This document shows, piece after piece, positions 9,530 through 33,940 of a DNA stretch of 34,751 nt. The position numbers and the translations under genes are program-made. The stretch is from Bacillota bacterium. GTDB lineage: Bacteria > Bacillota > Sulfobacillia > JAJZYS01. Location of the stretch: contig JAJZYS010000004.1 in NCBI GenBank assembly GCA_021797925.1, positions 1 through 34,751 of the forward strand, given 5' to 3'. Every line of letters starts with the position of its first letter. Within the stretch, counting starts at the first letter, position 1. The notes beneath the pieces are model-generated. The model saw only the letters and a list, made by a program, of their open reading frames with translations, was not told the DNA's origin and did no database searches.

Positions 9530-9575
9530 TTCGTTCCCATCCTCCCTCGACGCGCCCCCTCAGGTCGCCGCGGGG

Positions 9576-11536: not shown

Positions 11537-12525
11537 CGTCCGCTCCCTCCCATGGCCTGCGCCAGGCTTGCGTCCATGGCGCGGGCGGTCTGGATGAGGT
11601 CGACGTTGTCCACGCACACCGGGCCCTCGGCCCCCTGGGAAGCAAGCCCCGCGACGGCGGCGCAGAAGTCGTCCACCTCGGTGACGAAGGGGTCGTGGGG
11701 CTCGGCGGCCATGGGTGCCAGGCCGGTCCCCTCCAGGGTGCCCCCGCCGCCGAGGGTGTCGTCGGCGCGCAGCCAGCCGCGGTCTCCGTACACCTCGATG
11801 CGGCTCGACGGGCTGGGAAGGGCCGTCGACGTCTCCATCACCCCCACCGCGCAGTCGCCCAGCGCGAAGAGGACCGTCGCCGTGTCGTCGGTGGGCAGGC
11901 CGAAGCGCTGCGAGCGGAGCCCTGCGCCCACGACCCGCGCGGGCAGGCCGCTGATCCACAGCATGAGATCGATGAGGTGGGTGCCCACGTCGTTGATGGC
12001 CCAGCCTCCGCTGGTGGCGGGATCCTGGCGCCAGGCGGGCGGGGGGGCGTCGTAGGGCGCGAAGAAGTGAACGCGCACCTCCCCCACCCGCCCCACGGCG
12101 CCGGCGGCCACCCGCTCCCGCATCGCCTGGTGCAGGGGCCGGAAACGGTGGTGATAGCCCACCTTGAGGCGAACGCCCTCCCGGCGAGAGGTCTCCAGCA
12201 TGGCCCGGGCGTCCTCGACGCGGATGGCCATGGGTTTTTCGACCAGGACGTGCTTTCCGGCCCGCATCAGTTCCATGGCCATGGGCGCGTGGAGATGGTT
12301 GGGCGTGGCCACCCACACCGCCTGCACGCCCGGATCCCTGGCCAGCGCCTCGAGGGACGCGAAGGCGCTCGGTGCGCCGTGGCGGGTGGCGAACGCCTGG
12401 GATCGCTCGAGACTCGACCCGACCGCGCCCACCAGCCGGGCCCGGGTCGAGCGCCGGATCGCGGGGGCGAAGGTGGACTCGGCGAAGCCCGACGTGCCCA
12501 CCAGCGCCCAGCCCAAGGGTTCCAT
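11533..12525 (-). CDS. Gfo/Idh/MocA family NAD(P)-dependent oxidoreductase
   Basis: The protein has 330 residues, typical of the family. The N-terminal Rossmann motif is WALVGTSGFAE, followed by WVATPNHLHAP and the hallmark EKP at 96-98 (VLVEKPMA), whose lysine is catalytic. The second domain has the GYHHRFRP loop and NDVGTHLIDLMLW, containing the D-x-G-x-H-x-x-D catalytic set. Members oxidise or reduce hydroxyls of sugars, inositols and sugar derivatives. Two ATG codons lie close together. The second, at 12525, has the better spacing from AAGGAG. It is the first enzyme after the transporter genes, a position that fits the first oxidation of the imported substrate. Inositol 2-dehydrogenase-like and glucose-fructose-oxidoreductase-like activities are equally possible. 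Confidence 0.9.
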   Translation of the reverse strand: MEPLGWALVGTSGFAESTFAPAIRRSTRARLVGAVGSSLERSQAFATRHGAPSAFASLEALARDPGVQAVWVATPNHLHAPMAMELMRAGKHVLVEKPMAIRVEDARAMLETSRREGVRLKVGYHHRFRPLHQAMRERVAAGAVGRVGEVRVHFFAPYDAPPPAWRQDPATSGGWAINDVGTHLIDLMLWISGLPARVVGAGLRSQRFGLPTDDTATVLFALGDCAVGVMETSTALPSPSSRIEVYGDRGWLRADDTLGGGGTLEGTGLAPMAAEPHDPFVTEVDDFCAAVAGLASQGAEGPVCVDNVDLIQTARAMDASLAQAMGGSGR

Positions 12526-12566
12526 GTGCATCGCTCCTTGTCTCTGGCGGCGGCCTCGGGGCCCCG

Positions 12567-15089
12567 TCAGGCCAGTCTCGACTCCCGGTGGATCCGGTCG
12601 GTGTAGGCCCACACGGCCACCACGGCGAGCATGATGAGTCCCCGGAGGATTCCGATGTAGAAGGGGTTCACGGCCAGGAGGGTGAGGCCGTTGGAGATGA
12701 CCGTGAGGACGATGACCCCGGCGATGGTTCCGAGCACCGTGATCCGGCCGCCGAACAGGCTGGCTCCGCCCAGCATCACGGCGGCGATGGCGTCCAGCTC
12801 CAGGCCCGAGGCGGACTTGGGCAGCCCGCTGCCGATGCGGGCGGTGAGAAAGACCCCCACCAGCGCGGCCATGAGCGCGGAGGTGACGTACGCGAAGAGC
12901 ACCATGCGCACGGGACGCACGCCGCTCACCCGGGCAGCCTCGGGATCGCGGCCGAACGCGAAGAGGTGGCGGCCCATGGCGGTGCGCAGGAGAAGAAAGC
13001 CCGCGAGCGCGAACAGCCCGAACACCACCAGGGTGGCCGCGGGGAAGGGACCCAGCCGGACGCCCGACAGTCCCCAGAAGTAGCGCGGCACGGTGGCCGT
13101 TCCGTTCTCGTACCAGCCCAGGCCCAGGCCGTTGACGATGAGGGCCATCGCGTACGTGGCCAGGAAGGGGGGAATCTTGAAGTTGACCAGAAACGCGTTC
13201 ACCACCCCTGCGGCCACGCCGATCAGCAGCGTCAGGGGCACCGCGAGCCCGGCGAGGGGCCCCAGGAGCAGCGAGGCGCTCACCAGGTTGGCGAGGGTCG
13301 CCACGGCTCCGATGCTCAGGTCGATGCCTCCGGTGAGGATGACCAGCATCTGACCCACGCTCGCAAGGCCCAGCACCACCATCTGGCGGGCCAGGTTGCC
13401 CAGGTTCTGCCCGCCCAGAAAGTACGGGGTCAGGAAGCTGAACACGACGCTGAGGAGCACAAGGGCCGCGAAGGGGACCAGGGCCGGCCGCACCGCCCTT
13501 CGCCGCGTGGCGGACGGCGCCGTCGGCCCCGGAAGGGCGCCCGGCCGCGGGTCCCCGTCGCGCGCCACCGACGCGCTGGCCATGACGGATTCGCGGGTGA
13601 GCTCGGGCCCCTCGAGCTCGCGGACCACCTGTCCCCGGGCCATCACCACCACCCGGTCGCACAGCTGCACCACCTCGCGCGTGTCCGAGGAGACGACCAG
13701 GATGGCCATGCCCCCCTCGGCCAGGTGGCGGACGATCTCGTAGATTTCCGCCCGGGCGCCCACGTCCACCCCGCGGGTGGGTTCGGCGAGGACCAGCACC
13801 TTGGGACGGGCCGCCAGGCAGCGGGCCAGCAGCACTTTCTGCTGCTGGCCGCCGCTCAGGTACCGGCACTCGCGGTCGAGGAGCGCCGGGGAGAGGGCCA
13901 CCTCCCGCACGCCGCGCTGGAGCACGCTCGCCTCGTCGGCCCGCGAGAGCAGGCCCCGGCGGCGCAGCGCGGGAAGGATCCCCATGGTGATGTTCTCGCG
14001 GACGGTCCGGCCCATGGCGAGGCCGTCGCGCTTTCGGTCCTCCGGGGCGAACACGATTCCGGCGGCGGCCGCGGCGGCGGGGGACGAGAGGTCCACCGCC
14101 CGCCCGTCGCGGCGCACCGAGCCCCGAAAGCCGACGGCCACGCCCCCCAGCACCTGGGCCACCTCCACCGCACCCGAGCCCACCGGACCGCACAGGGCCA
14201 GGATCTCCCCCTGGCGCAGGGTGAAGCTCACCCCGGAAAAGCCGTGACCGCAAAGCCCCTCCACCGCGAGGGCCGCCGGGGCCGCCCTGTGTGGAGCCCT
14301 GGGCAGCGCGGCGTCGGCGACCTCGCGGCCCACCATGGCGCGGATGAGCTGGGTCTCGTCGATCTCGCCGCGCTCCGCCCTCAGCACCACCGCGCCGTCC
14401 TTGAGGACGGTGACCCGATCGGCGATCCTGAGGACCTCGTCGAGCCGGTGGGAGATGTACACGATGCCGAGCCCCTCCGCCTTGAGCCGGGCCACGAGGC
14501 GGTAGAGGTCCTCGCTCTCCCCGGGTCCCAGGGCGGAGGTCGGCTCGTCGAGGATGAGCACGCGCAGGGGATGGGCCAGGGCCTTGCTCAGCTCCAGCAG
14601 CTGCTGCTGGGCGACCGACAGCGCCTGCACAGGGTCGTCGGGGCGCTGGGGCAGGGAGACCCGCCGGAGGAGCCCTTCGCTGATGCGCCTGAGGTCCGCG
14701 AGCCGGAGGATCCCGCCCAGCCGGGTGGGCTCCTGACCCAGCAGCACGTTCTCGCCGACGGTGAGGTTGTCCACCAGGGTCAGCTCCTGGTACACGGTTC
14801 CCACGCCGTGGCGGAACGCGTCCAGAGGGCTGCCGAAGTGAACGGGCTCGCCCATGAGGCGCACCACGCCCGTGTCCGGGGCGATCGCCCCGGAGAGGAT
14901 CTTCACGAGGGTGCTCTTGCCCGCCCCGTTCTCGCCCACCAGGGCGTGGACCTCACCGGCGCGCAGGGTGAGGGAGACGTCCCTGAGGACGGTGACCCCC
15001 GAGTACGTCTTCCCGGCGCCCTCGACCGACAGGACCACCTCGCCCCGCCGCTCCACGGGATCCAGGGGCATCAGCCGCTCCACTGCCAT
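12567..15089 (-). CDS. Ribose-type ABC importer: double ATPase fused to a permease domain
   Basis: The protein has 840 residues. Residues 1-510 form an RbsA/MglA-like double ATPase. NBD1 has Walker A GENGAGKST at 52-60, signature LSVAQQQ at 157-163 and Walker B LILDEPTSAL at 178-187. NBD2 has signature LSGGQQQK at 411-418. Its Walker A position reads GPVGSGAVEV (no Lys or Thr) and its Walker B reads VLVLAEPTRG, with Ala435 where Asp is usual. Only NBD1 therefore looks fully catalytic. Residues from about 520 to 840 are an RbsC-like permease with about eight to ten membrane segments and the family motifs ILTGGIDLSIG and MLGGASLFGGR. In most systems these are two genes. A second free permease gene lies upstream. 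The ATG at 15089 has GAGGTGG before it. Confidence 0.9.
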   Translation of the reverse strand: MAVERLMPLDPVERRGEVVLSVEGAGKTYSGVTVLRDVSLTLRAGEVHALVGENGAGKSTLVKILSGAIAPDTGVVRLMGEPVHFGSPLDAFRHGVGTVYQELTLVDNLTVGENVLLGQEPTRLGGILRLADLRRISEGLLRRVSLPQRPDDPVQALSVAQQQLLELSKALAHPLRVLILDEPTSALGPGESEDLYRLVARLKAEGLGIVYISHRLDEVLRIADRVTVLKDGAVVLRAERGEIDETQLIRAMVGREVADAALPRAPHRAAPAALAVEGLCGHGFSGVSFTLRQGEILALCGPVGSGAVEVAQVLGGVAVGFRGSVRRDGRAVDLSSPAAAAAAGIVFAPEDRKRDGLAMGRTVRENITMGILPALRRRGLLSRADEASVLQRGVREVALSPALLDRECRYLSGGQQQKVLLARCLAARPKVLVLAEPTRGVDVGARAEIYEIVRHLAEGGMAILVVSSDTREVVQLCDRVVVMARGQVVRELEGPELTRESVMASASVARDGDPRPGALPGPTAPSATRRRAVRPALVPFAALVLLSVVFSFLTPYFLGGQNLGNLARQMVVLGLASVGQMLVILTGGIDLSIGAVATLANLVSASLLLGPLAGLAVPLTLLIGVAAGVVNAFLVNFKIPPFLATYAMALIVNGLGLGWYENGTATVPRYFWGLSGVRLGPFPAATLVVFGLFALAGFLLLRTAMGRHLFAFGRDPEAARVSGVRPVRMVLFAYVTSALMAALVGVFLTARIGSGLPKSASGLELDAIAAVMLGGASLFGGRITVLGTIAGVIVLTVISNGLTLLAVNPFYIGILRGLIMLAVVAVWAYTDRIHRESRLA

Positions 15090-15127
15090 CGCGCCACCTC
15101 GGCCTGCCAGGATGGGTTACCGTCGGG

Positions 15128-16300
15128 TCACTTGTGCGGGCAGTACGGGTCGAACTTGCACGGCAGCCCGCCGGACCACCACCACTCGTCAGGCCGGTTG
15201 AACTTGACGTAGTGCGCGATGTTCTCGGGGGTGATGTTGGGCTTGGGCACGATGAAGTCCTCCGGGACGGGTTTTCCCTCGAGGATCTTCACCGCCTGGA
15301 GCACCGCGTACTTGCCCGCGTCCACGGGGATGGGCGTCATGATGGAGGGGATGTGGGTGCGGGCGACGATCTTCATCCAGCCGTTGGCGTCGTCGCCGGT
15401 CCAGGCCTTGATCTGGGAGACGCGGCCCGCGGCCTTCACCGCGTCGTAGCAGCCCACGCCCTGGTTGCCGCTGATGGACTCCACCGCGTCGATCTTGGGA
15501 TAGCGGGCCAGCAGCGCCTGCATGATCTCCTTGCACTTGCCGGGTTCGTAGTCGGCGTACTGGGTCGTCAGCACATGGATGCCGGGGTAGCGGTGGAGGA
15601 TCTTCAGGGCGTTGTCCACCTCGTCGATGGTGGCGCCGTTGCCCTGCTGGCCACCGATGATGACGACGTTGCCGTGGCCGTGGAGGCGCTGGGCCACCCA
15701 CGCGCCCTGGAGGTAGCCGTTGTCGTTGTCACGGTCGTTGATGAACTCGGTGTAGCTGCGGCAGCTGACCGCGCGCTCCAGGATCAGGACCGGCACGTGC
15801 TGCGCCACGGCCTTGGCGATGGAGGGGCACAGCGCGCTCGTGTTGGTCGCCGCCAGGATGATCGCGTCCACGTGCCGCGCCAGGAGGTCCTCGACGTCGG
15901 CGATCTGCTGGGACGTGCTGTTGTTGGCGTTGGTGTAGACGAGCTTCGCCAGGCCGTGGGTCAGGGAGATGCCCCATTCCACCTCGGCCTTGGCCATGAT
16001 CCGCCAGGAGTTGGAGAGGGAGGCGTCCGCGTAGCCGATGATGAACGGCGGCTTGCGCTGATACGGCTTGGTGTTCACCATGATGTGCACGCCATACTGC
16101 GGCGGGACCTTGGGCGGATAGAAGACGAAGCGGTGACTTGCCGAGCCGGTGGATGAACCGGCGGCGACCGGGACGCCGCCGGTGGTCAGGATGGTCGCCA
16201 CGGCCACGGCCGTGACACCCAGGAGGCCCCGGATTCCGAGGCCGCGAGGCCGGCGGGTGGGGGAGCGAAGGACACGGGAGCGGGACCACACCTTGATCAT
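15128..16300 (-). CDS. Sugar-type ABC transporter substrate-binding protein (RbsB-like)
   Basis: The protein has 390 residues. A basic N-terminus and the hydrophobic stretch GLLGVTAVAVATIL end near residue 47 in a probable signal peptide. No lipobox cysteine is present, unlike most Gram-positive binding proteins. The mature part is a periplasmic-binding-protein type 1 fold: IIGYADASLSNSWRIMAKAE, then DVEDLLARHVDAIILAATNT, VPVLILERAV, VVIIGGQQGNGAT and VESISGNQGVGCYDAVKAAG. It ends with CKFDPYCPHK, two cysteines that could form a disulfide. It should capture a sugar- or polyol-like ligand outside the membrane for the fused ATPase-permease. The ATG at 16300 follows AAAGGAGAG at an ideal distance. 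A start 21 bases further up lacks such a site. Confidence 0.9.
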   Translation of the reverse strand: MIKVWSRSRVLRSPTRRPRGLGIRGLLGVTAVAVATILTTGGVPVAAGSSTGSASHRFVFYPPKVPPQYGVHIMVNTKPYQRKPPFIIGYADASLSNSWRIMAKAEVEWGISLTHGLAKLVYTNANNSTSQQIADVEDLLARHVDAIILAATNTSALCPSIAKAVAQHVPVLILERAVSCRSYTEFINDRDNDNGYLQGAWVAQRLHGHGNVVIIGGQQGNGATIDEVDNALKILHRYPGIHVLTTQYADYEPGKCKEIMQALLARYPKIDAVESISGNQGVGCYDAVKAAGRVSQIKAWTGDDANGWMKIVARTHIPSIMTPIPVDAGKYAVLQAVKILEGKPVPEDFIVPKPNITPENIAHYVKFNRPDEWWWSGGLPCKFDPYCPHK

Positions 16301-16384
16301 CGCTGCTCTCCTTTCGCGCACCTGGATCCGACCCCTCGACGGGACCTGGCCGTCGTCCTTCAGTGCACCGGCTGGCCCAGCGCG

Positions 16385-16399
16385 GCCCCGGGCCGGGGC
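16385..16399 (-). other. Short GC hairpin between permease and binding-protein genes
   Basis: Six paired bases (GCCCCG with CGGGGC) enclose a three-base loop within the 109-base gap separating the permease stop from the binding-protein start. There is no T-run, so it is not a classical terminator. It could mark an mRNA processing or stabilising point that sets a different level for the binding protein. In this GC-rich DNA, chance is a real alternative. Confidence 0.25.
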
Positions 16400-16409
16400 G
16401 CACCCGCCA

Positions 16410-17462
16410 TCACCTCCCTTCCGGTCTCGTGCCGCCCGCGCGCGCCAGGTGGCGCACCAGGGCGCGCAGTCCGTGGTGTTCCGGCGACTGGTACAGCGCC
16501 ACGCCCAGGAGGAGGATCAGCCCGGTGGCCACGGGCTCGAACGCCGCCGGCACGCCGGAGATGACGAGGAGGTTGAAGATGACGGCGAGCAGGAGCGCTC
16601 CGCCCAGGGCGCCGGCCGCGCTGCCGCGCCCTCCGAAGAGCGAGGTGCCGCCGATGACCGTCGCCGCGATGGCGGTGAGTTCCATTCCCGATCCCAGCCA
16701 GCTCTGGCCGGAACCCACGTACGAGGTCTCGAACATGCCGGCCAGCGCGGCGAACAGTCCGCAGAGCATGAACGCCAGGGTGCGCATGCGGGCCACGGGG
16801 ATCCCGGCGATGAAGGCGGCCCGGGGATTGCCGCCCACGATGTACAGGGCTCGCCCGGCGACGGTGCGGTTCAGCACCGTCCAGATCGCGGCGGTGCCCG
16901 CGGCCAGGACGAGCGCTCCCACGGGCAAGGGTCCCAGGGTCAGGGCGCTGAAGTGCCCGAAGGCCGGAGCCAGGGTGCTCGAGGGACCGCCCGACGTCCA
17001 CACGAGGTTGACGCCCTGCAGGATGAGCAGCATGGCCAGGGTCACGATGAAGGAGGGGATTCCGAGGCGGGTGGTGAGCAGGCCGTTCACCAGGCCCACG
17101 GCGACCCCCGTGGCGGCGGCCGCGAGGAGCACGGGCGCGATGAGCGCGTCCCTGGCCTGCATGCCGTTGGCCGAGATCACCGAGACGATGGAGATGACCG
17201 AGCCCACCGAGAGGTCGATCTCCCCGGTGACGAGGACCAGGGTCATGCCCAGGGCGGTCAGCCCCAGGGGCACGGCCTGCGTGACGACATTGGCCAGGTT
17301 GACCGGAGTCAGCACCCCGGGATAGAGGATCGCGCCCACGAGGACGATGAAGGCCAGGATGGCGTAGACCCCGCCGAAACGCAGTCGGCGCAGGAGAGCC
17401 CCCCCACCAGCCCCCGCAGGATCGAAACCGCCGGTCGCCGCCACGCCCGAACGATTGCGCAC
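16410..17462 (-). CDS. Ribose-type ABC transporter permease (RbsC-like)
   Basis: The protein has 350 residues with about eight to ten membrane segments. It carries the branched-chain/ribose permease signatures ALGMTLVLVTGEIDLSVGSV near the first third, GIPSFIVTLAMLLILQG, then GNPRAAFIAGIPV and the C-terminal VIGGTSLFGGRGSAAGALGG. It is the first gene of the operon. With the permease half of the downstream fusion, it would give a heterodimeric membrane channel. The GTG at 17462 is preferred because GAGGGA lies 5 bases upstream. The ATG at 17489 has no purine-rich site in front. A longer reading to 17609 would run through the AT-rich control region. Confidence 0.88.
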   Translation of the reverse strand: MRNRSGVAATGGFDPAGAGGGALLRRLRFGGVYAILAFIVLVGAILYPGVLTPVNLANVVTQAVPLGLTALGMTLVLVTGEIDLSVGSVISIVSVISANGMQARDALIAPVLLAAAATGVAVGLVNGLLTTRLGIPSFIVTLAMLLILQGVNLVWTSGGPSSTLAPAFGHFSALTLGPLPVGALVLAAGTAAIWTVLNRTVAGRALYIVGGNPRAAFIAGIPVARMRTLAFMLCGLFAALAGMFETSYVGSGQSWLGSGMELTAIAATVIGGTSLFGGRGSAAGALGGALLLAVIFNLLVISGVPAAFEPVATGLILLLGVALYQSPEHHGLRALVRHLARAGGTRPEGR

Positions 17463-17516
17463 CGTGTTCCCTCGCTCGTGATTCCGCATGGATGAGGGAC
17501 GGAAGGACCGTGACGG

Positions 17517-17535
17517 TGTCTCATAGAATAAGACA
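17517..17535. promoter_or_regulatory. Candidate operator in the operon control region
   Basis: This is an imperfect inverted repeat with arms TGTCTcAT and ATaAGACA around a 3-base centre, with seven of nine base pairs matched. It lies in the most AT-rich stretch of the area, 55 bases before the first permease codon, and overlaps the 8-base palindrome ACATATGT at 17533-17540. IclR-family regulators usually bind palindromes of this size, and an IclR gene diverges next door. The -35 and -10 boxes for the leftward promoter could not be fixed with confidence. Confidence 0.5.
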
Positions 17536-17652
17536 TATGTATCAAAAATCGCGACGATGGTGCGATCATTCGCCGGGGCGGTGAGGAATCCTGCCGCGGC
17601 CCGGGGCAATCTGTGCGGATCTCGCGCCGCGAGGCGCAGGCGGGAGGCTTCG
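17536..17652. other. Non-coding part of the divergent control region
   Basis: The gap between the permease start (17462) and the regulator start (17813) is 350 bases. Apart from the palindrome and the rightward promoter listed separately, this part shows a short A-run (17543-17548) and GC-rich sequence. I see no convincing gene, RNA or further repeat in it. Confidence 0.5.
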
Positions 17653-17681
17653 TTGAAGATCCCGGCGAGGAAGGCTATAGT
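17653..17681 (+). promoter_or_regulatory. Sigma-70-type promoter for the IclR regulator
   Basis: TTGAAG (17653-17658) and TATAGT (17676-17681) are separated by exactly 17 bases. They match the vegetative consensus at four and five of six positions. Transcription would begin near 17688, leaving a leader of about 125 bases before the regulator start. Confidence 0.6.
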
Positions 17682-17812
17682 GGCAGCGCAGGATCCGTTT
17701 GCTTCACGTTTCGACCCTCGCCGCCAGCGAGCGGCACGCCGCGGCCGGCGGTCCGCCCAGCGCGGATGCGGGCCCGGCGGCTCGGGCGGCCAACCAGGGA
17801 GGCCTCGGGGTG

Positions 17813-18667
17813 ATGGCGCTGGAAGGGAAGTCTCGGGAGGCCGGTGCGCCCTCGCTGTCGCCGGTGGGGCCGAGGACCGTGGACCGCATCCTGGCCCTGC
17901 TCGACTGCTTCACGCCCGCCCGGCATCATCTCTCCCTGCGCGAGCTCAGCCAGGCCATGGGCCTGCACCGCAGCACCGTGCACCGGCTGGCGACGCGGCT
18001 GTGCGCGGCGGGATACCTGGAACACGACCGCGAGCGCGCAACCTACCGCCTGGGCCTGCGGCTGTTCGAACTGGGCGCGATCGTGCTCACGGACATGGAG
18101 CTGGTGACCCAGGCTCGTCCCCACCTCGAGGCGCTGCGCGACGAGACCGGCGAGACCACGCACCTGGGGGTCCTCGACCACGGCGAGGTGGTCTACGTGG
18201 AGAAGTTCGAGGGCGAGCACCTGCTCAACCTGACCAGTCCCGTGGGCTCGCGCCGGCCGCCCCACTGCACCTCGCTGGGCAAGGTGCTGCTCGCGCACCT
18301 TGACGAGCGCGACGTGGTCCGCATCGCCGAGGTGACCGGGCTGCCGCGCTACACCGAGCACACCATCGGCGACGTGGCGACCCTGCTCGACGAACTGCGC
18401 CGGGTGCGGGCCTCAGGTTACGCCGTCGACAACGAGGAGACGGACATCGGCCTGCGCTGCGTGGCCGTGCCCATCCGGGACTTCACCGGCCAGGTGGTCG
18501 CGTCGGTGGGCATCTCCGGCTCCACCTCCCGGCTTAGGCTGGAGGCCCTGCCCGCGCTCGTGGAGCTCCTCGCCGCCCACGCCGAGCGCATCTCCGTGGC
18601 CATGGGCTGGGGCGGTACCGGGGGTGCCTGGAACCGGACCGAGACCCAGCCTCACCGCCTGCCCTGA
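17813..18667 (+). CDS. IclR-family transcriptional regulator
   Basis: The protein has 284 residues. The N-terminal winged helix-turn-helix reads TVDRILALLDCFT, then LSLRELSQAMGLHRSTVHRL and a wing at ATYRLGLRLFELG. The C-terminal IclR effector domain has ETTHLGVLDHGEVVYVEKFE, RRPPHCTSLGKVLLA and the closing segments GLRCVAVPIRDFTG and VASVGISG. Such proteins sense a small metabolite and control adjacent catabolic operons. It is divergent from the transporter-led operon and is its most likely regulator. The start is ATG 17813. The codon just before it is GTG 17810, which is slightly better spaced from the GGGAGG site and is also possible. Upstream extension to 17699 adds low-complexity sequence and is not favoured. 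Confidence 0.9.
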   Translation: MALEGKSREAGAPSLSPVGPRTVDRILALLDCFTPARHHLSLRELSQAMGLHRSTVHRLATRLCAAGYLEHDRERATYRLGLRLFELGAIVLTDMELVTQARPHLEALRDETGETTHLGVLDHGEVVYVEKFEGEHLLNLTSPVGSRRPPHCTSLGKVLLAHLDERDVVRIAEVTGLPRYTEHTIGDVATLLDELRRVRASGYAVDNEETDIGLRCVAVPIRDFTGQVVASVGISGSTSRLRLEALPALVELLAAHAERISVAMGWGGTGGAWNRTETQPHRLP

Positions 18668-18678
18668 CCCGGCGCGCT

Positions 18679-18700
18679 TGGCCCGGGTGCGCCCGGGCCA
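18679..18700 (+). terminator. Perfect GC hairpin after the IclR gene
   Basis: A 9-base-pair perfect stem (TGGCCCGGG with CCCGGGCCA) and a TGCG tetraloop begin 12 bases past the regulator stop. No T-tract follows, but strong hairpins of this kind often end genes in GC-rich bacteria. Confidence 0.55.
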
Positions 18701-18728
18701 CCGCGGCAACCCTGGTATCCCGGCGGAT

Positions 18729-18749
18729 CTGGCCGCTTGAGGCGGCCAG
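18729..18749 (+). terminator. Second hairpin after the IclR gene
   Basis: An 8-base-pair perfect stem (CTGGCCGC with GCGGCCAG) and a TTGAG loop are followed by a moderately T-rich stretch (CTTGGCTCC). Together with the hairpin at 18679-18700 it may form a tandem terminator insulating the regulator from the LCP genes. Confidence 0.5.
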
Positions 18750-18919
18750 CTTGGCTCCGGTGTTCCGTGTCGCCCCGACGCGCATTCCGAAGGGCTCCCG
18801 CACGGCGGGATGGCGCCGGCGGCGGACTTGTCCCGCACGTGGTGCTGCGGTAGGCTCGGGAAGGGGAGTTCGATCTGGTTCGACGCAGCGCAAGACACCG
18901 GCGGCGGCGGCTGCGCCCG

Positions 18920-20134
18920 GTGCCCGTCATCATCCTGGGCCTGGCGGTGCTCCTGGCCCTGGGGATCGTGCTCCAGCGCCTCAGCGACCCCGCCGCGCCG
19001 GTGTGGGAGCCGGTCACGGCGACGCTGGGCCGCCTCATCTCGGGAGTCTCGGGAAGCGAGAACATCCTGCTCATCGGCAACAACGCCCGCAGCGCCACCT
19101 CGCCGCTGAGCCCCGGCCAGGCGGACATCCTGATGGTGGTGCACGTGGATCCGGCGGCCCGCACCGTCACCCTGATCTCCATCCCGCGCAACGTGCTGTT
19201 CGCCTACCCGGGCTGGCGTGATCCCATCCCCAAGATCAAGGGCGCGTTCTTCCTGGGCGCGAACGAGACGCCCAACCGCGGGCCGCAGATGGCGGTGCAG
19301 GCGGTCTCCAAGCTCACGGGCCTGCCCATCAACGGGTATGTGGTCACGGACTTCCAGGGGTTCGTGGACGCCATCAACGCCGTGGGGGGCATCACGGTGG
19401 ACGTGCCGGCCCGCCTGTACGACCCCAAGAACAGCGGCGCCAACCTCTATCCCGGGGTGCAGCGGCTCGACGGCGCCCAGGCGCTGGCCTACGTGCGCAT
19501 CCGTCAGAACGAGGCCGGGAACGGCGTGCGGGTCAACGACTTCCAGCGCATGGACGCGGAGGCCCAGGTCCTCGCCGGCCTGAAGCGGGCGCTGCTCAAC
19601 CCAGCCACCGCCCCCACCACGGTGCCGAGGCTGGTGGCCGTGTGGCAGCGCGACGTGGTCACCAACCTCAACCGTTCCCAGCTCGTGGGGTTGCTCATCG
19701 GCGCGGCCGGCGACCACTTCCACCATCTCACGCTGGGCGCGCTGCGCGACTCCATGATCCTCGCCAGCGCCCCGCTGCCGGGGGTCAACGCGGAGGGAGC
19801 CATCGAGGGGGCCTACTACGACATCCTCGACCCCGCGCACATCGAGGCCGAGCTGGCGCCGCTGGGCGGCGGCCCCGCCAGCACGGGGCTGCCGCCGTTG
19901 CCCGCGCCGGCCTCGGTGCCCGTGGAGGTGTCGGGCTCCGCCTCGCTGATCAGCAGGCTCAAGGCGGCCGGTTTTCCCCTCACCGCCCAGGTGACCGCAG
20001 GCGGAGGCCACATCACGGTCTACTATCCCCCCGGCGAGCCCGCCGCGGGCTGGGCGGTGGCGCGAGCGGTCGCCGCGAGCAACGAGTACGTGGTTCCCGG
20101 GAGCAGCGCCCGGGTCGTGGTCGTCGACAACTGA
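18920..20134 (+). CDS. LytR-CpsA-Psr (LCP) family protein with LytR C-terminal domain, copy 1
   Basis: The protein has 404 residues from GTG 18920. A membrane anchor at 2-20 is followed by an extracellular LCP domain: NILLIGNNARSAT at 48-60, the polyprenyl-binding core LISIPRNVLF at 85-94, TDFQGFVDAINAVGGITVDV, and RLDGAQALAYVRIRQN with VNDFQRM after it. A C-terminal LytR_C-like domain covers about 310-400. LCP proteins attach glycopolymers such as teichoic acid or capsule from a lipid carrier to peptidoglycan. Two family aspartates are asparagine here (GNNAR at 53-57 and PRN at 89-91). The true start may lie at CTG 18875, which has GGGGAG 6 bases before it and would add a basic cytoplasmic tail (LVRRSARHRRRRLRP) suited to a membrane anchor. 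Confidence 0.88.
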   Translation: MPVIILGLAVLLALGIVLQRLSDPAAPVWEPVTATLGRLISGVSGSENILLIGNNARSATSPLSPGQADILMVVHVDPAARTVTLISIPRNVLFAYPGWRDPIPKIKGAFFLGANETPNRGPQMAVQAVSKLTGLPINGYVVTDFQGFVDAINAVGGITVDVPARLYDPKNSGANLYPGVQRLDGAQALAYVRIRQNEAGNGVRVNDFQRMDAEAQVLAGLKRALLNPATAPTTVPRLVAVWQRDVVTNLNRSQLVGLLIGAAGDHFHHLTLGALRDSMILASAPLPGVNAEGAIEGAYYDILDPAHIEAELAPLGGGPASTGLPPLPAPASVPVEVSGSASLISRLKAAGFPLTAQVTAGGGHITVYYPPGEPAAGWAVARAVAASNEYVVPGSSARVVVVDN

Positions 20135-20436
20135 GGGCCCCGTGTATTTCATCGGCCTCGATGACGACGATCGTCGAGGGGTCGATGAGCGTGCAGAAAA
20201 TGATATAATGGAGCGGCTGGGCGAATCCGCGGTCGGAACCGGCGGTATCGCCGCGAAAACGATGACGGTGACCCTGCGGCGGCGGGACGAAGGCGCCGAG
20301 CGCCGGCGGCGGGGGTAACGGTTCAAGAGGATGGGGAGGGGAGGGCGGCCGCAGTGCCCGCAACGCGCGTCGCAGCGGATAGGGCGGCTCAAGCCCCGCA
20401 AGGACCCGGCGGGTCGCGGGCGGTCAGGGGGACACG
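20135..20436 (+). other. Intergenic region with long 5' leader before the second LCP gene
   Basis: These 302 bases contain no credible gene. After the first LCP stop there is a 12-base perfect palindrome CGACGATCGTCG (20165-20176), then the promoter at 20201-20209, then about 220 bases of GC-rich leader with several possible stems (for example around 20285-20320). I compared it by eye with c-di-GMP, c-di-AMP, TPP, FMN, cobalamin and ZTP riboswitch cores and recognised none. Confidence 0.5.
20201..20209 (+). promoter_or_regulatory. Extended -10 promoter for the second LCP gene
   Basis: TGATATAAT contains a perfect TATAAT at 20204-20209 preceded by the TGN extension. There is no good -35 at 16-18 bases upstream, which is usual for extended -10 promoters. 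Transcription would start near 20216. A perfect TATAAT is striking in DNA this GC-rich. Confidence 0.65.
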
Positions 20437-21696
20437 GTGCCCGGGCCGGCCCCGGGGGGCCGCTCTCCGATGAGGGGGCGCCGCCTGCTCTGGATCGCCG
20501 CGGGCGCGCTGGTGGTCGCGGGCGCCGCCGCCGCCACCGGCGCCCAGCGCCCGGGCTCGACGCCGCTGTGGAAGCCCGTGGCCCGGTCCATCGGCAAGGC
20601 GCTGGCCACCGGTTCGCGCAGCACCAACGTCCTTCTGATCGGCAACAACGCGCGCAACGCCGCCTCGCCGCTGGCGCCGGGACAGGCCGACATTCTCATG
20701 GTGGCGCACGTGGATCCGGCCAAGAACGTGGTCACCCTCGTCTCGATCCCGCGCAACGTGCTCTTCGCGTACCCGCGATGGCGGGACCCCATTCCCAAGA
20801 TCAAGAGCGCCTTCTTCCTCGGGGCGCAGGTGGCGCCGGCCCAGGGCCCCCGCATGGCCATGGCGGCGGTGTCCAGGCTCACGGGCCTGAAGATCCGCCA
20901 CTACATCGTCACGGACTTCCAGGGATTCGTGGACGCGGTGAACGCCGTGGGCGGGGTGAAGATCGACGTGCCCGCGCGGCTTTACGACCCCGCCAACAGC
21001 GGCGCCAACTTCCAGCCGGGCGTTCAGCGGCTCGACGGCCAGCAGGCGCTCGCGTACGTGCGGATCCGCCAGAACCAGGCGGCGGACGGCGCGCGGGTGA
21101 ACGACTTCCAGCGCATGAACGCCGAGGCCCAGGTGCTCTCGGCCATCAAGGCCGAGGTGCTGGAACCGGCACGGGCCGCGGCGTCGCTGCCCAGGCTGCT
21201 CTCGGTGTGGAGCCGCGACGTGCGCACCAACCTGAGCACCCACGCGCTGGTGGGCCTGGCCCTCGAGGTGGCGTCGATGCACGTGAAGCATCTGACCCTG
21301 GGGAGCATCGCCGACTCCATGCAGCTGGGACCCGAAAGCATCCCCGGCGTCAACGCCGAGGGCGCCATCGAGGGCGCCTATTACGACGTCCTCAGTCCCG
21401 CGCACATCGCCCGGGAGCTCGCGCCCCTCGGATCCCGGGGTGCGGCCACGGGACTGCCGCCCCTGCCCTCGCCCGCGTCGGTGGAGGTCATCGCGCAGTG
21501 CGCTGCCACCTGGACCCAGCGGCTCGTCGCGGCGGGGTTCCAGGTGCACCCGGGCGCGGTGCGCGGCGGGGCGCTCACCGTCTGGGCGCCGGCCGGCGCC
21601 CTGCCCCAGGCGTGGGCGGTGGCCAGGGCGCTGGGCGCGGGAAACGAGGCGGTGCTGGTCGCCCCGGTGCCCGAGGTCACCGTCACCGGCGGCTGA
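20437..21696 (+). CDS. LytR-CpsA-Psr (LCP) family protein with LytR C-terminal domain, copy 2
   Basis: The protein has 419 residues from GTG 20437, which follows AGGGGGA by 5 bases. ATG 20470 is an alternative with a poorer site. A membrane anchor lies at about 17-37. The LCP domain parallels the first copy almost segment by segment: NVLLIGNNARNAA, LVSIPRNVLFAYPRWRDPIP, TDFQGFVDAVNAVGGVKIDV and RLDGQQALAYVRIRQNQ. The C-terminus again carries a LytR_C-like domain (about 330-415). It shares with copy 1 the asparagines at the GNNAR and PRN positions, so the change predates the duplication. It stops one base before the convergent short-chain dehydrogenase stop, leaving no room for a separate terminator. 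It probably transfers a glycopolymer to the wall, though catalysis may be altered. Confidence 0.9.
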   Translation: MPGPAPGGRSPMRGRRLLWIAAGALVVAGAAAATGAQRPGSTPLWKPVARSIGKALATGSRSTNVLLIGNNARNAASPLAPGQADILMVAHVDPAKNVVTLVSIPRNVLFAYPRWRDPIPKIKSAFFLGAQVAPAQGPRMAMAAVSRLTGLKIRHYIVTDFQGFVDAVNAVGGVKIDVPARLYDPANSGANFQPGVQRLDGQQALAYVRIRQNQAADGARVNDFQRMNAEAQVLSAIKAEVLEPARAAASLPRLLSVWSRDVRTNLSTHALVGLALEVASMHVKHLTLGSIADSMQLGPESIPGVNAEGAIEGAYYDVLSPAHIARELAPLGSRGAATGLPPLPSPASVEVIAQCAATWTQRLVAAGFQVHPGAVRGGALTVWAPAGALPQAWAVARALGAGNEAVLVAPVPEVTVTGG

Positions 21697-28417: not shown

Positions 28418-30694
28418 TCACGGGGGCGAAGTCGGCATCGAAACCGGGGCGCGCTCCGGCAGCTCCGGGGCCGCCAGGCTGAGGCGCAGCAGGGCGGAGA
28501 TGGGATAGATGACCGCCGTGGAGGCGGCGACGACCCCGGTGTCGTTGAAGAAGTACCCCACGACCACGCCGACCCCGGCTCCCACCAGCCCCATGGAGAG
28601 CATGGGATAGCGGCGGGCGATCTCCCGGGTGATCCCCGTGGAGCGGGTGAGCGCCAGCACGGCGGCGATGATCGACGCCACGAGCAAGAGGGTCCAGTAG
28701 CTCGCCTGGGTGAGGATCAGGTTGGTCTGCAGCTTGCGCAGGATGATGAGGATCCCCTGGTACGGTCCGCCGTCGACGATGAGGGCGCCTGCCCGGCCGA
28801 TGTCTGTCCTGTGGCCGGGGGCGTGCACCAGGAGGTCGTATCCCACCAGCATCAACAGCAGGGCGATGATGACCCCGGCGATGCCCAGCACCTCCCGCCC
28901 GCGGATCTTGCGTCCCGACAGCAGGAGCAGCGTCACGCCGTAGGCGGCCGTGGCGGTGATGGCGCCGCCGGCCTTGGTGCCAAGTCCCGGCAGGACGAGC
29001 ACCACCACCACGAAGACGTAGATGGCCGCCGCCACCGGCAGGAAGGAGCGGAGCCGGAAGCGGTCCATGAAGGCGGGCAGCCCGATGGCCCCCGCCCCCA
29101 CCAGCACGCCCATGTACTCGTTGCCGATGCCGTAGTAGCGGGCGCCGATCTGGGGGTCGTAACCCAGCGGCGAGCCCTTGATGAGGTGCGCGCCGGTGAG
29201 CACGTCCCCCATGAGCAGGGCGATCATGATGAGCGAGGGGATCCAGATGGGGTCCAGCGGGTGCCGGGATATGAGCAGGGTCAGCGCGGTGAGCGCCGCC
29301 GTGACCCCGACGAGGAAGAGGAACGACTCGCTGAGGTAGAGCGAGTGGATGGCCGAGAGCAAGAGGAGGGTCACGGGGAGGTACAAGACCGAGGCGATCA
29401 GGGCGGAGAGCGCTCGGGCGAACCAGAGCTTGCGTCGCCGCAGGCCGAGATAGAGCACGGCCAGCACGAACAGCAGCGCGATGTAGTACACGGTGGGGCG
29501 GAGGATGGGAACCCGCTGCGTGGAGGTGGCCGCGATGCGGGGGCCGATGATCGACAGGTAGTGCAGGGGGTGGGCGTACGCGATGGTGCGGCAGTACTGG
29601 CCGAACATGTCCATGGGGGGCGTGCGCATGCCCAGGAGGAACCTGAGGATGGTGGGGGCGATGTCGATGTCGGAGACGATGCCCCGGCGATGCGTCGTGC
29701 CCGAGGTCAGCAGCCCGTGCCGAAACGGACCGCCGGCGATGGCCAGGGGAGTCAGGGTGGCCCCCTCGTGCAGGCTCTGGCGCGAGGGCGTGGGCGAGAC
29801 CATGATGATCTCCGTGGTCCGCAGGTTGATGTGGGGGAGGATGAGACGCAGGTAGGTGTTGAAGCGGTCGATCGCGTGGGTCATGTAGCCGTGGGCGATG
29901 GCGGGTGGGGTGCCGTAGTACTGGTAGGCGTCGGCCCGGTCGGTGTCCCCGTAGTCCACCTCGACGACCGCGGCGCGCCTGAGGTACGCCAGCGTCTTTT
30001 TGGCCAGCAGGTGGTTGCGAAGCTCCACGCCGTACGGCTCCATGGGGGCGCGGCGCAACAGGTCGGACGAGACGTCCCCCATGGGGACAATCCCCTGGCT
30101 GTTCATCACCATCGCGGCGGCGCCGTGGTTGAGCACGTAGGTCGGGGGCCGGGTCGTGTAGTCGACGATGTCGCTGTTGCCCAGCGCCGCGGTCTTCAGC
30201 CCGTGGTCCTGGAGCACCTGGCCGAGGTAGCCGATGTGGATGACGTACTCCAGACCCAGGTTCTCCCGCTGAATGCCCGCGAGGTTCAGGGCCACGACCG
30301 ATCCCGGCGGCGGCCGCACCCCGGTGTTGCGCTGGTAGATGTCGGCCGCCGGCACGCCGCCCAGCCTGGTGCCGGCGTTGAACATCTCCGCGGCGGTCAG
30401 GCCCCGGAGGTGTTCGCTGGAGGCGATGGTCATGGCCGCGGCGTCGAGACCCGGCGCGCCGGCGGTGTTGGAATTCATCAGGCCGACGCTGCTCATGTGC
30501 AAAAGACGCGCCAGGGGCTCGAGGTGCGGGCGGTCCAGATTGTTCAGGGTGGTGCGGTCGACCACGAGGACCAAGACATGGCGGCCGGTTCGCGTCGAGG
30601 CGGCGAGCGCGGGATGGAGCCACACCGCGACCAGGGCCGTGACCACGAGAGCCAGCGGCCAGCTCTTTCGCAAGGCGCAAGGACCTGCCTTCAT
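28418..30694 (-). CDS. Large membrane protein with alkaline-phosphatase-like extracellular domain
   Basis: The protein has 758 residues. A signal peptide or anchor (1-33) precedes an outside domain to about residue 390, then about ten membrane helices (395-740). The outside domain follows the alkaline phosphatase/sulfatase fold: VLVLVVDRTTLNNL at the nucleophile position, then TEIIMVSPTPSRQS, TPLAIAGGPF and SDIDIAPTILRFLLGM near its end. The family's metal-binding SDHG is replaced by SPTPS, so the metal site looks incomplete. The membrane half has repeated hydrophobic helices and the loop GARYYGIGNEYMG. Such proteins are usually called hypothetical or alkaline phosphatase family, and an envelope polymer role is possible. 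The ATG at 30694 lacks a good ribosome site. A TTG seven codons in is another option. Confidence 0.72.
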   Translation of the reverse strand: MKAGPCALRKSWPLALVVTALVAVWLHPALAASTRTGRHVLVLVVDRTTLNNLDRPHLEPLARLLHMSSVGLMNSNTAGAPGLDAAAMTIASSEHLRGLTAAEMFNAGTRLGGVPAADIYQRNTGVRPPPGSVVALNLAGIQRENLGLEYVIHIGYLGQVLQDHGLKTAALGNSDIVDYTTRPPTYVLNHGAAAMVMNSQGIVPMGDVSSDLLRRAPMEPYGVELRNHLLAKKTLAYLRRAAVVEVDYGDTDRADAYQYYGTPPAIAHGYMTHAIDRFNTYLRLILPHINLRTTEIIMVSPTPSRQSLHEGATLTPLAIAGGPFRHGLLTSGTTHRRGIVSDIDIAPTILRFLLGMRTPPMDMFGQYCRTIAYAHPLHYLSIIGPRIAATSTQRVPILRPTVYYIALLFVLAVLYLGLRRRKLWFARALSALIASVLYLPVTLLLLSAIHSLYLSESFLFLVGVTAALTALTLLISRHPLDPIWIPSLIMIALLMGDVLTGAHLIKGSPLGYDPQIGARYYGIGNEYMGVLVGAGAIGLPAFMDRFRLRSFLPVAAAIYVFVVVVLVLPGLGTKAGGAITATAAYGVTLLLLSGRKIRGREVLGIAGVIIALLLMLVGYDLLVHAPGHRTDIGRAGALIVDGGPYQGILIILRKLQTNLILTQASYWTLLLVASIIAAVLALTRSTGITREIARRYPMLSMGLVGAGVGVVVGYFFNDTGVVAASTAVIYPISALLRLSLAAPELPERAPVSMPTSPP

Positions 30695-30893: not shown

Positions 30894-32528
30894 ATGAAGC
30901 GCTGGCCCCGGAGCCTGAGGTCCCTTCTCGCGGCGCCCCTCGTGCTCGGCGCGCTTGTGGCCGCTGGCCCCTGGGCGTTCGCGGGATCCTTCGCCGCGGG
31001 AGCGAGCCCGTCCGCGGTGTCCCGGCAGGCTCCGGCGCCTTCCCCGGCGGCGAGCCGGCCGACCGCCTGGATCCTCGCGTACGCGCACTTCGACCAGGTC
31101 GTCGGGGCGGCCGGCGTCGCGGCCAAGCTGAAGCACGCGACCGTGTACGAGGTCGTGAACCTGCGGCAGAAGCCTTCCACGCTGCTGCCGGTGGTGGCGA
31201 CCCTCGACTTCCACTCGTACGCCCGGATGCGCGCGGTGCTCAGTGGGCCGCTGCCGGGCTACATCCGCGCGGTCATCTACGACAACGAGCGTTACGCGAA
31301 CACCCCCGCCGACGAGCAGGCCCACCCGGCCGCGTACACCCGCCTGGCGGTGGCCCTCGCCCATGCCCACCACCTCAAGATCATCTGCGACGACATCCTG
31401 CCCGACCGGGTGCCCGGTGGCGTGGTTGCGGACTGCGACGTCGTGGGGCTGAACACCGTCCAGCAGTCGGAACGCCGCGTGGCCGTCTACCGGGCGAAGG
31501 TGAGCCGGCTCGTCGCCGTCATTCACGCCGCCCGGCCCGGCGTGCCCATCACCGCCGGGCTCAGCAGCAACCCGGTCGGCCCGCCGGTCCACGCCTCGGT
31601 GCTGGCGCAGGACATGGACGCGGTCGAGGGACTGGTCAACGGCTTCTGGCTCAACGTCCCCGCTCCGGGTGTGGGCTGCCCGCGCTGCGGCCTGCCCAGA
31701 CCCCAGGTGATGGCGCGGGCCCTCTCCGAGTGGGAACCGTCCGCCGCGGGCGTGGCGGGCCCTGGCGCGCGGCTTGGCGCCATCGCCTGGATCATGGCGG
31801 CGTCGGGCCTCTCGAAGCTCGACGCCGCCGACCAGGCGTGGTTCGAGCGCCGGGCGCGCGTCGCCGTGCTGGAGCCGGGGAGCGCCCCCCGCGGCCCGGA
31901 GGGAGCCTTCCGCCCGTGGGCGGACGCGACGAGCCTCGCAGCGGTGAAGCGGATCGTCGGGCGAAGCCGTGCCGGGGGCGGCTTCGCCGCGATCCTGCTG
32001 GACATCGAGCGCTGGCGGTTCACGCCGTCCGGCGAGGCGGCGCACCCTGTCCAGACGGCTCTGCAGGCCGCCTCGGCCGCCCATCGCGCGGGGCTTGGGC
32101 TGGTGGTGGCGCCCGCGCTCGACCTCGCCCACGGGACGCGCTCGCCGGTGCAAACGCTCCTCGGAGCGGACCTCTACGGCCGGCTGGCGCGCGTCGCCGA
32201 CGGCGTCGAGGTCCAGGCCCAGGGTCTGGAGCGCGATCCGTCGGCCTACCGGTCGTTCGTGCTCGCCGCGGTGGCCCAGATGCGCTCGGCCCACCCGGGG
32301 ATCCCCGTCTGGGCCGGCCTGAGCACGAATCCGACCTCGGGCGTGCCCACGCTGGCGATGCTGCTGGCGGACATCCGGGCCGTCGACGGGGTGGTGCAGG
32401 GATTCTGGCTGAACGTCCCGGCGCCGGGGCCTTTCTGCCCCCGCTGCCACGCATCCGATCCAGCGTTGGCGGACGCGCTCCTTCACGTCTTCGGGGCGCC
32501 GGCCCCGGGCTCGAGCGGCGCCGGGTGA
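30894..32528 (+). CDS. Secreted protein with two tandem copies of an uncharacterised domain
   Basis: The protein has 544 residues. A signal peptide (about 1-30) and an Ala/Pro/Ser linker (31-56) lead into two related halves, roughly 57-280 and 295-535. Each half has a strand ending in an acidic motif, VIYDNERYANTP with EQAHP (128-145) and ILLDIERWRFTP with EAAHP (368-385). Each closes with GFWLNVPAPG and CPRC (250-265 and 503-518). The shared pattern D-x-E-R-aromatic-x-x-T-P-x-x-E-x-A-H-P looks like an active or ligand site, and the D-x-E recalls TIM-barrel glycosidases such as GH18. That link is speculative. CPRC could bind metal or form disulfides outside the cell. I do not recognise the family by name. 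The ATG at 30894 follows GGGAGGGTGA. Confidence 0.82.
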   Translation: MKRWPRSLRSLLAAPLVLGALVAAGPWAFAGSFAAGASPSAVSRQAPAPSPAASRPTAWILAYAHFDQVVGAAGVAAKLKHATVYEVVNLRQKPSTLLPVVATLDFHSYARMRAVLSGPLPGYIRAVIYDNERYANTPADEQAHPAAYTRLAVALAHAHHLKIICDDILPDRVPGGVVADCDVVGLNTVQQSERRVAVYRAKVSRLVAVIHAARPGVPITAGLSSNPVGPPVHASVLAQDMDAVEGLVNGFWLNVPAPGVGCPRCGLPRPQVMARALSEWEPSAAGVAGPGARLGAIAWIMAASGLSKLDAADQAWFERRARVAVLEPGSAPRGPEGAFRPWADATSLAAVKRIVGRSRAGGGFAAILLDIERWRFTPSGEAAHPVQTALQAASAAHRAGLGLVVAPALDLAHGTRSPVQTLLGADLYGRLARVADGVEVQAQGLERDPSAYRSFVLAAVAQMRSAHPGIPVWAGLSTNPTSGVPTLAMLLADIRAVDGVVQGFWLNVPAPGPFCPRCHASDPALADALLHVFGAPAPGSSGAG

Positions 32529-32776: not shown

Positions 32777-33940
32777 TTGGCATCGAGCGAGACCCGGCCG
32801 GACCGGCCTCACATCCTGATCCTGACCGCGACGTTCGGAGAGGGCCACCGCCGGGCGGCCATGGCTGTGCAGCAGGCGCTCGCCCTGGAGAGCCCGCAGA
32901 CGCCGGTGGAAACTCGCGACTTCTTCGAGTTCGTGAGCGGGGCGCTCAACGTGGCCATCCGGCAGGCGTACATCCAGAGTGTGCGTCACGTTCCCGGCGC
33001 CTACGGCTGGTTTTACCACCGCACGGACGTCGCCAACCCCGACGCGCGGGTGCAGCACCTGCTCAACCACCTGGGGAAGGGGCCGTTGCTGCGCTTCCTG
33101 CAGGAGACCCGACCGCCGGTGGTGATCTCCACCTATCCGACCCCGGCCGGGGTCATCTCCGACCTCAAGCGCGAACACCGGTTCAGCGGCGCCAACCTGG
33201 CGGTGGTCACCGACTACACCGTGCACGGCCAGTGGGTGCACCCGAAGGTGGACACCTACTTCGTGGGGGCGCCCGAGGTGCGCGACGGGATCGTGCGCCG
33301 CTGGCGCATCCCCCCCGAGCGGATCCTCGTCACGGGCATCCCCGTGGACCTGAGCTTCGGGCAGCCGGTGGACCGAGAGGCCCTCCGGCGCCGCTGGGGG
33401 TTCGACGAGCGGCCGGTGGTGGTGTTCATGGCCGGCGGCTACGGCATGATCGGGGATTTCGGCCGGGTGGTGAGCGCCCTGGCGGACCTGCCTCAGGATC
33501 TCATCCTGGCGGTGGTGGGCGGAAAGCAGCCCGCCCGCCAGGCGGAGGCGCAGGCGGCGGGGCAGGGCCGGCGCAACCCCGTCTATGCGCTGGGATACGT
33601 GGATCCCATCCTCGATCTCCTGGGCGCGGCGGACATCCTGGTCTCCAAGGCCGGGGGCCTGACCGTCTCCGAAGCGCTGTGCCAGGCGGTGCCGCTGGTG
33701 ATCTACCGCCCCATCATCGGGCAGGAGACGCGCAACACCACCTATCTCGTGCACCGGGGTGCGGCCCGCTGGGCCCGCAACCGCAAGGAGCTCGTGGCCA
33801 CGGTAGCCGAGCTCATCGAGCATCCCGACCTGCGTGCCAAGCTCAGCGCCGCCGCCCGGGCGGCCGCGCATCCGGACGCGGCCAGGGAGGTGGCGCGGTT
33901 CGCGGTGAACTGCTTGAAGGAGCAGGTCGCGGTCCCGTGA
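32777..33940 (+). CDS. UgtP/MGDG-synthase-like diacylglycerol glycosyltransferase
   Basis: The protein has 387 residues and a GT-B fold of family GT28. The N-terminal MGDG-synthase domain has HILILTATFGEGHRRAA at 12-28, whose GxGH motif is typical, and then VISTYPTPAGVISDL and VVTDYTVHGQWVHP. The C-terminal nucleotide-sugar domain has VVFMAGGYGMIGDFG and SKAGGLTVSEALCQAVP with YRPIIGQE. These enzymes add glucose or galactose to diacylglycerol, making membrane glycolipids that can anchor lipoteichoic acid. The start is TTG 32777, the only start codon that keeps the GxGH motif. GGAGGAAGG lies a rather long 13 bases upstream. It ends in a GTGA overlap with the MFS gene, matching the ypfP-ltaA type of pairing. 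The sugar donor is not determined. Confidence 0.87.
   Translation: MASSETRPDRPHILILTATFGEGHRRAAMAVQQALALESPQTPVETRDFFEFVSGALNVAIRQAYIQSVRHVPGAYGWFYHRTDVANPDARVQHLLNHLGKGPLLRFLQETRPPVVISTYPTPAGVISDLKREHRFSGANLAVVTDYTVHGQWVHPKVDTYFVGAPEVRDGIVRRWRIPPERILVTGIPVDLSFGQPVDREALRRRWGFDERPVVVFMAGGYGMIGDFGRVVSALADLPQDLILAVVGGKQPARQAEAQAAGQGRRNPVYALGYVDPILDLLGAADILVSKAGGLTVSEALCQAVPLVIYRPIIGQETRNTTYLVHRGAARWARNRKELVATVAELIEHPDLRAKLSAAARAAAHPDAAREVARFAVNCLKEQVAVP

Follow-up and report, generated by a model that had tools for sequence, protein, structure and literature searches.

A probably exported protein of two similar halves

We analysed a 34,751-nucleotide stretch of DNA, hereafter the window, from a Bacillota bacterium of the class Sulfobacillia (assembly GCA_021797925.1, contig JAJZYS010000004.1). 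An open reading frame at 30894-32528 on the forward strand starts with ATG, stays open throughout and encodes a protein of 544 amino acids, with a coding-like base composition (GC of 0.76, 0.56 and 0.92 at the three codon positions); promoter, terminator and Rfam scans gave no matches. The protein begins with MKRWPRSLRSLLAAPLVLGALVAAGPWAFA-G, which by eye is a typical Sec signal, and an N-terminal hydrophobic stretch recurs in nearly all of its relatives, about 13 of which carry a lipobox. Judged from its sequence, the 544-residue protein is probably exported, in agreement with a preliminary description of this DNA that had called it secreted.

The same description had pointed to landmarks repeated in the same order in the two halves, and this was borne out. 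Each half carries D-x-E-R, TP, AHP (beginning 13 residues past the D of D-x-E-R), GLS-NP, GFWLNVPAPG and CPRC. The halves share 37% identity over 182 amino acids (BLASTP 3e-29), with a local alignment score of 246, whereas 1000 shuffles averaged 36.8 and never exceeded 60 (z about 36). The gene has the following features:

30894..32528, + strand: whole gene, 544 aa, stop codon included, two predicted barrel domains in the order B-A
30894..30983, + strand: probable Sec signal peptide, residues 1-30 (charged start, hydrophobic core, AFA-G; hydrophobic stretch)
31005..31760, + strand: N-terminal predicted (beta/alpha)8 barrel, subfamily B (profile match 31044-31733; AlphaFold; tree)
31281..31307, + strand: D-x-E-R-Y-x-x-T-P of the N-half, strand 4 end (D, E, T and P invariant in 40/40 domains; strand 4 ends at D)
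31557..31574, + strand: GLSSNP of the N-half, strand 7 end (AlphaFold model, conservation)
31641..31661, + strand: GFWLNVP of the N-half, strand 8 (AlphaFold model, conservation)
31677..31688, + strand: CPRC of the N-half, loop past strand 8 (C-x-x-C in 38/38 covering rows)
31758..32525, + strand: C-terminal predicted (beta/alpha)8 barrel, subfamily A (profile match 31779-32492; AlphaFold; tree)
32001..32027, + strand: D-x-E-R-W-x-x-T-P of the C-half, strand 4 end (AlphaFold model, conservation)
32316..32333, + strand: GLSTNP of the C-half, strand 7 end (AlphaFold model, conservation)
32400..32420, + strand: GFWLNVP of the C-half, strand 8 (AlphaFold model, conservation)
32436..32447, + strand: CPRC of the C-half, loop past strand 8 (AlphaFold model, conservation)

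The upstream neighbour, at 28418-30694 on the reverse strand, encodes a protein of 758 amino acids that contains several hydrophobic stretches and matches nothing in Pfam or NCBIfam. Downstream, at 32777-33940 on the forward strand, lies a glycosyltransferase of the MGDG-synthase/diglucosyl-diacylglycerol-synthase type, which scores below the NCBIfam equivalog cut-offs. Elsewhere in the window, positions 7733-21693 hold what reads as a cluster for uptake and breakdown of the inositol or ribose type, made up of a TPP enzyme, sugar ABC transporter genes and an IclR regulator; two LytR-CpsA-Psr proteins come after it.

Both halves are modelled as complete barrels

The halves were folded with AlphaFold2 from their own alignments; the full-length alignment was set aside, single domains having piled onto the C-half. 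Both models were confident (C-half, 40-row alignment: mean pLDDT 90.6, pTM 0.88; N-half, 37-row alignment: mean pLDDT 90.5, pTM 0.86), and each has the eight strands alternating with helices of a complete (beta/alpha)8 barrel. The D-x-E lies directly past strand 4 in the C-half, while in the N-half its D is the last residue of that strand, so that the earlier suggestion of a TIM barrel with an acidic motif at a strand end is upheld by structure prediction of each half. Past strand 6 follow Q-x-Q in the C-half and N-T-V-Q-Q in the N-half. In both models strand 7 closes with GLSTNP or GLSSNP, strand 8 is made up of GFWLN, and CPRC occupies the next loop, rather than forming the chain end as the preliminary description had it.

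The active site of TIM-barrel enzymes lies on the C-terminal face of the strands. Conservation in the family is concentrated there: 32 of 238 scored columns are conserved at 85% or more, and 19 of these 32 fall where strands end C-terminally or in the loops that follow, positions that make up 74 of all 238 columns (p=3.5e-4). By its eight strands, a pLDDT of about 90.5 and this enrichment, each half belongs to the (beta/alpha)8 TIM-barrel fold. All 40 domains, which come from several phyla, have the D, E, T, P and second Q. W-x-N-x-P occurs in every row covering those columns, W-L-N-x-P likewise in all rows covering it, and C-x-x-C in 38 of 38 covering rows. Of the motif originally described as D-x-E-R...TP...AHP, D-x-E and T-P are thus invariant, whereas the family as a whole does not keep the R or the A/H of AHP.

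The conserved cysteines invite a reading in which C-x-x-C is itself the working part, a thiol/disulfide or metal site in a redox protein working outside the cell in acid habitats rich in iron and sulfur. CPxC resembles thioredoxin-like motifs and the pair is kept in every covering row; moreover, the 544-residue protein has two such pairs, and B domains carry two further cysteines. However, the pair sits in a barrel's loop past strand 8 with no thioredoxin fold, one relative (L051) lacks it in the alignment, and such an account would leave the invariant D-x-E and T-P unexplained. We regard this reading as improbable, and the pair past strand 8 probably forms a disulfide.

Searches of solved structures with Foldseek returned generic barrels only (TM about 0.57 or less, roughly 10-16% identity). 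These were mostly aldolases and lyases with a few glycosidases, the best E-values being about 3e-6 to 1e-5, and isocitrate lyase, aldolases, homocitrate synthase and triosephosphate isomerase were the top matches. GH5, GH18, GH128 and PgaB barrels were among the generic matches, and a viral library gave GH5 and GH18 barrels. Isocitrate lyase, class I and II aldolases and homocitrate synthase have the best Foldseek E-values against the family barrel, but at a TM of about 0.57 or less and 10-15% identity; they are larger and cytoplasmic, and do not have its motifs. On the models, then, each half is a described fold in an undescribed family.

An unnamed family with a strong tie to acid habitats

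Sequence searches of Pfam, NCBIfam and the PDB with the protein, its halves and the family profile gave no match, and this, together with the Foldseek results, accords with the earlier statement that no named family could be assigned. A match to a characterised family, which would have counted against the earlier description, did not turn up. Matches to carboxysome-shell and zinc-ribbon proteins were dismissed as chance, with E above 0.01 and in single members only. Both halves match the family profile (E-values 8e-68 and 5e-75) and bear its signature: D-x-E-x-[WYF]-x-x-T-P, a Q past strand 6, a GLSTNP-like strand 7, G-[FY]-W-L-N-x-P and C-x-x-C.

Relatives were found in 11 of the 61 nearest genomes, source genome counted, and in 21 of 154 genomes of the class. 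When 84,980 species genomes were scanned with a single degenerate pattern, 38 named loci emerged. The number is a lower bound, since the pattern misses any member in which a different residue precedes GYWLN, as in the N-half of the 544-residue protein. These loci span at least five phyla (Bacillota, Actinomycetota, Acidobacteriota, Pseudomonadota and Dormiibacterota). Searches of plasmids (with a Nocardia domain), of phages (with the C-half) and of viral contigs found no relative.

More than half of the named loci (23 of 38) bear names of one bin series. One of its codes, DBS, denotes a mining area in a study of acid-mine-drainage sediment (PMC12153355), and the other codes we provisionally assign, by name and accession, to the same series. 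Five further loci come from Thiomonas, Actinospica acidithermotolerans, Sulfoacidibacillus, Sulfobacillus and Aciditerrimonas, which, by name or known biology, are acidophiles or genera of acid habitats. About 28 of the 38 named loci are from apparent acid-mine-drainage bins or named acidophiles, and the remainder include two Nocardia strains and uncultured lineages. The family's tie to acid habitats is therefore strong, though not absolute. Little is known about the extracellular polymers of acid-mine and bioleaching biofilms or about the enzymes that shape them, and an unnamed family of exported barrels with interchangeable modules, spread over several phyla of such habitats, provides a concrete target.

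Neighbouring genes hint at extracellular polysaccharide

An all-against-all comparison of flanking open reading frames revealed neighbours common to closest relatives only and none common to the source window; no neighbour is kept across the family. The most regular arrangement was seen in one related Bacillota family, where the gene is preceded on the same strand by a PAPS synthase (a bifunctional ATP-sulfurylase/APS-kinase fusion) and a sulfotransferase at 7 of 7 loci. At L014:3181-5891, and likewise in L015-L020, these two genes lie directly upstream, with a DUF6020-like protein downstream on the other strand. A universal role in sulfation was rejected, as neither a sulfotransferase nor an APS kinase was matched in the source genome, which is 96% complete.

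In a Dormiibacterota bin (L043:1626-6753), genes for an HlyD-like adaptor, an unknown protein of 320 amino acids and a GT2 glycosyltransferase precede the family member on one strand, overlapping or adjacent, a run that from its gene content looks like an exopolysaccharide operon. Other neighbours include an HlyD-like adaptor (L037 and L040), a sulfatase (L021) and a pectate-lyase-like protein (L029). Taken together, the neighbours hint at extracellular or sulfated polysaccharide, inconsistently across the family, and action on the cell envelope, as first proposed, becomes one possibility only.

Some neighbours point elsewhere, towards a secreted (beta/alpha)8-barrel enzyme other than a glycosidase, such as a lyase, esterase or phosphodiesterase whose target is an extracellular metabolite or the head group of a lipid. 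Phosphoesterases or phosphatases adjoin the family member in L023, L030 and L038, the next gene in the source window is the MGDG-synthase-like glycosyltransferase, and the structural ranking is led by isocitrate lyase, aldolases, homocitrate synthase and triosephosphate isomerase. Yet matches at such low TM mirror a common fold, the metabolic enzymes concerned are cytoplasmic whereas family members are exported, and neither the phosphoesterase nor the glycosyltransferase neighbours are conserved. We consider such an activity rather unlikely, although the strongest of the competing accounts.

A candidate glycosidase-like hydrolase

We propose instead, with a probability of roughly 0.4, that the protein is an exported enzyme of two fused (beta/alpha)8 barrels, a glycosidase-like hydrolase of extracellular polysaccharide at low pH. 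A hydrolase outside the cell, most simply a glycosidase, is suggested because the protein appears to be exported, has the invariant D-x-E carboxylates at strand 4 and presents an aromatic-rich face. Of the "TIM-barrel hydrolase" first put forward, the barrel is supported by the models, and hydrolysis is what we infer. The site, on the catalytic face of each barrel, would combine D-x-E-x-[WYF]-x-x-T-P past strand 4 and Q-x-Q past strand 6 (subfamily B has N for the first Q) with G-L-S-T-N-P from strand 7 and G-[FY]-W-L-N-x-P from strand 8. The Glu of D-x-E would act as acid/base, and the Asp two residues earlier would assist or orient the substrate, as in substrate-assisted glycosidases, so that a glycosidic bond in an extracellular polysaccharide might be cut outside the cell at low pH.

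Like the substrate-assisted, hexosaminidase-type glycoside hydrolases of GH18, GH25 and GH56 (hyaluronidase), the 544-residue protein combines the barrel fold with a D-x-E pair ending strand 4. Those families also have an aromatic residue near D-x-E and a Trp on strand 8, as does this one, and its resemblance to the GH56 hyaluronidases is limited to the short D-x-E-x-W. Nevertheless, comparison of the 40 domains with Pfam gave no match to any glycoside hydrolase family, including GH18 (PF00704), GH25 lysozymes (PF01183) and GH56 hyaluronidases (PF01630). The GH18 signature D-x-x-D-x-D-x-E is missing, D-x-E alone being present, and T-P, Q-x-Q, GLSTNP and CPxC are the family's own landmarks. In hyaluronidase, the Asp of D-x-E assists the acetamido group and the Glu is the acid/base, and the same arrangement occurs in other substrate-assisted families despite little sequence similarity (PMC13080975). 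Of a substrate-assisted mechanism, which would involve hydrolysis of a 2-acetamido sugar and an oxazoline-type intermediate, what fits here is the placement of D-x-E. Because by sequence the family belongs to none of GH18, GH25 and GH56, we claim, with moderate confidence, a likeness in working only.

Weighing against a glycosidase are the lack of any GH-family sequence match among the 40 domains and the structural ranking: the fold does not single out glycosidases, because aldolases, lyases and isomerases, the top matches, score at similarly low TM. Also comparable are glycosidases of exopolysaccharide operons, namely the PgaB C-terminal domain and the GH114/spherulin-4 type, which like the family are exported barrels tied to secreted polysaccharide; PgaB is among the fold matches, a spherulation-specific family 4 phage protein is among those from the viral library, and L043 sits in its run with an HlyD-like adaptor and a GT2 synthase. 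They differ from the family in that there is no sequence similarity, the TM is low and no operon is conserved.

A barrel that is dead or only binds, its conserved face holding a ligand as in a surface lectin or a chaperone for an exported polymer, would account for the missing catalytic signature. Many members are membrane-fixed lipoproteins, and avidity would suit a fusion of two barrels. However, conserved aromatics would suffice for binding, and two carboxylates invariant in 40 of 40 domains across several phyla would be unusual; we therefore think this reading unlikely. If the protein is a glycosidase, it would represent a new carbohydrate-active family working extracellularly at low pH.

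The halves come from different subfamilies

That the gene arose by recent internal tandem duplication of one domain is suggested by the 37% identity between its halves, and the preliminary description had called it tandem-duplicated. The phylogeny makes that term misleading: the N-half falls in subfamily B and the C-half in subfamily A, in different supported clades, and placing them as sisters costs 62 log-likelihood units and is rejected under the model used (AU test, p=2.7e-9). Because sisterhood is rejected, the halves are not a recent tandem copy, an origin we hold to be very improbable; on sequence grounds they are old paralogues from two subfamilies, joined by fusion.

Stand-alone A, B and C domains all exist among the relatives. 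Kin of the N-half, marked as subfamily B by CD...PDR...GLNTVQQSER, occupy the C-terminal position in two-domain proteins of Actinomycetota (L045, L050) and of Sulfobacillus or its class (L047, L071), and one more (L068) is a stand-alone protein. In the tree, the C-half sits with domains from an acid-mine proteobacterium (L041), from Sulfoacidibacillus (L042) and from a relative within the class (L064). Subfamily C, marked by YLQLGN...DLQVQSSER, stands alone in L069 and apparently L073, and is N-terminal in L047 and L071. B is thus followed by an A domain in the 544-residue protein, preceded by another A-type domain in L045 and L050, and preceded by a C domain in L047 and L071. Because B has different partners on different sides across lineages, at least two fusions are needed and three separate ones are probable. 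Phyla are intermixed in the tree, which fits transfer between co-resident bacteria without proving it.

Since A, B and C differ around strands 5 and 6, the two barrels probably have different subsites or substrates. The modules may have a catalytic core in common with different binding subsites, in which case the fused B-A protein would be a two-specificity enzyme. More tentatively, the whole may represent a new exported glycosidase family of acidic habitats, in which three recombining barrel modules serve distantly related acid-mine-drainage bacteria in acting on extracellular polysaccharide, perhaps sulfated in one lineage.

At L071:1-1511 (genome G518), the two-domain C-B gene reads as two overlapping frames that part near the B domain's D-x-E, either because the gene is broken or because of an assembly error. 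At L042:6526-7260 (Sulfoacidibacillus thermotolerans), the A domain is fused to an unrelated domain of 245 residues with no Pfam or PDB match, which by eye is barrel-like, of the spherulin-4/GH114 type.
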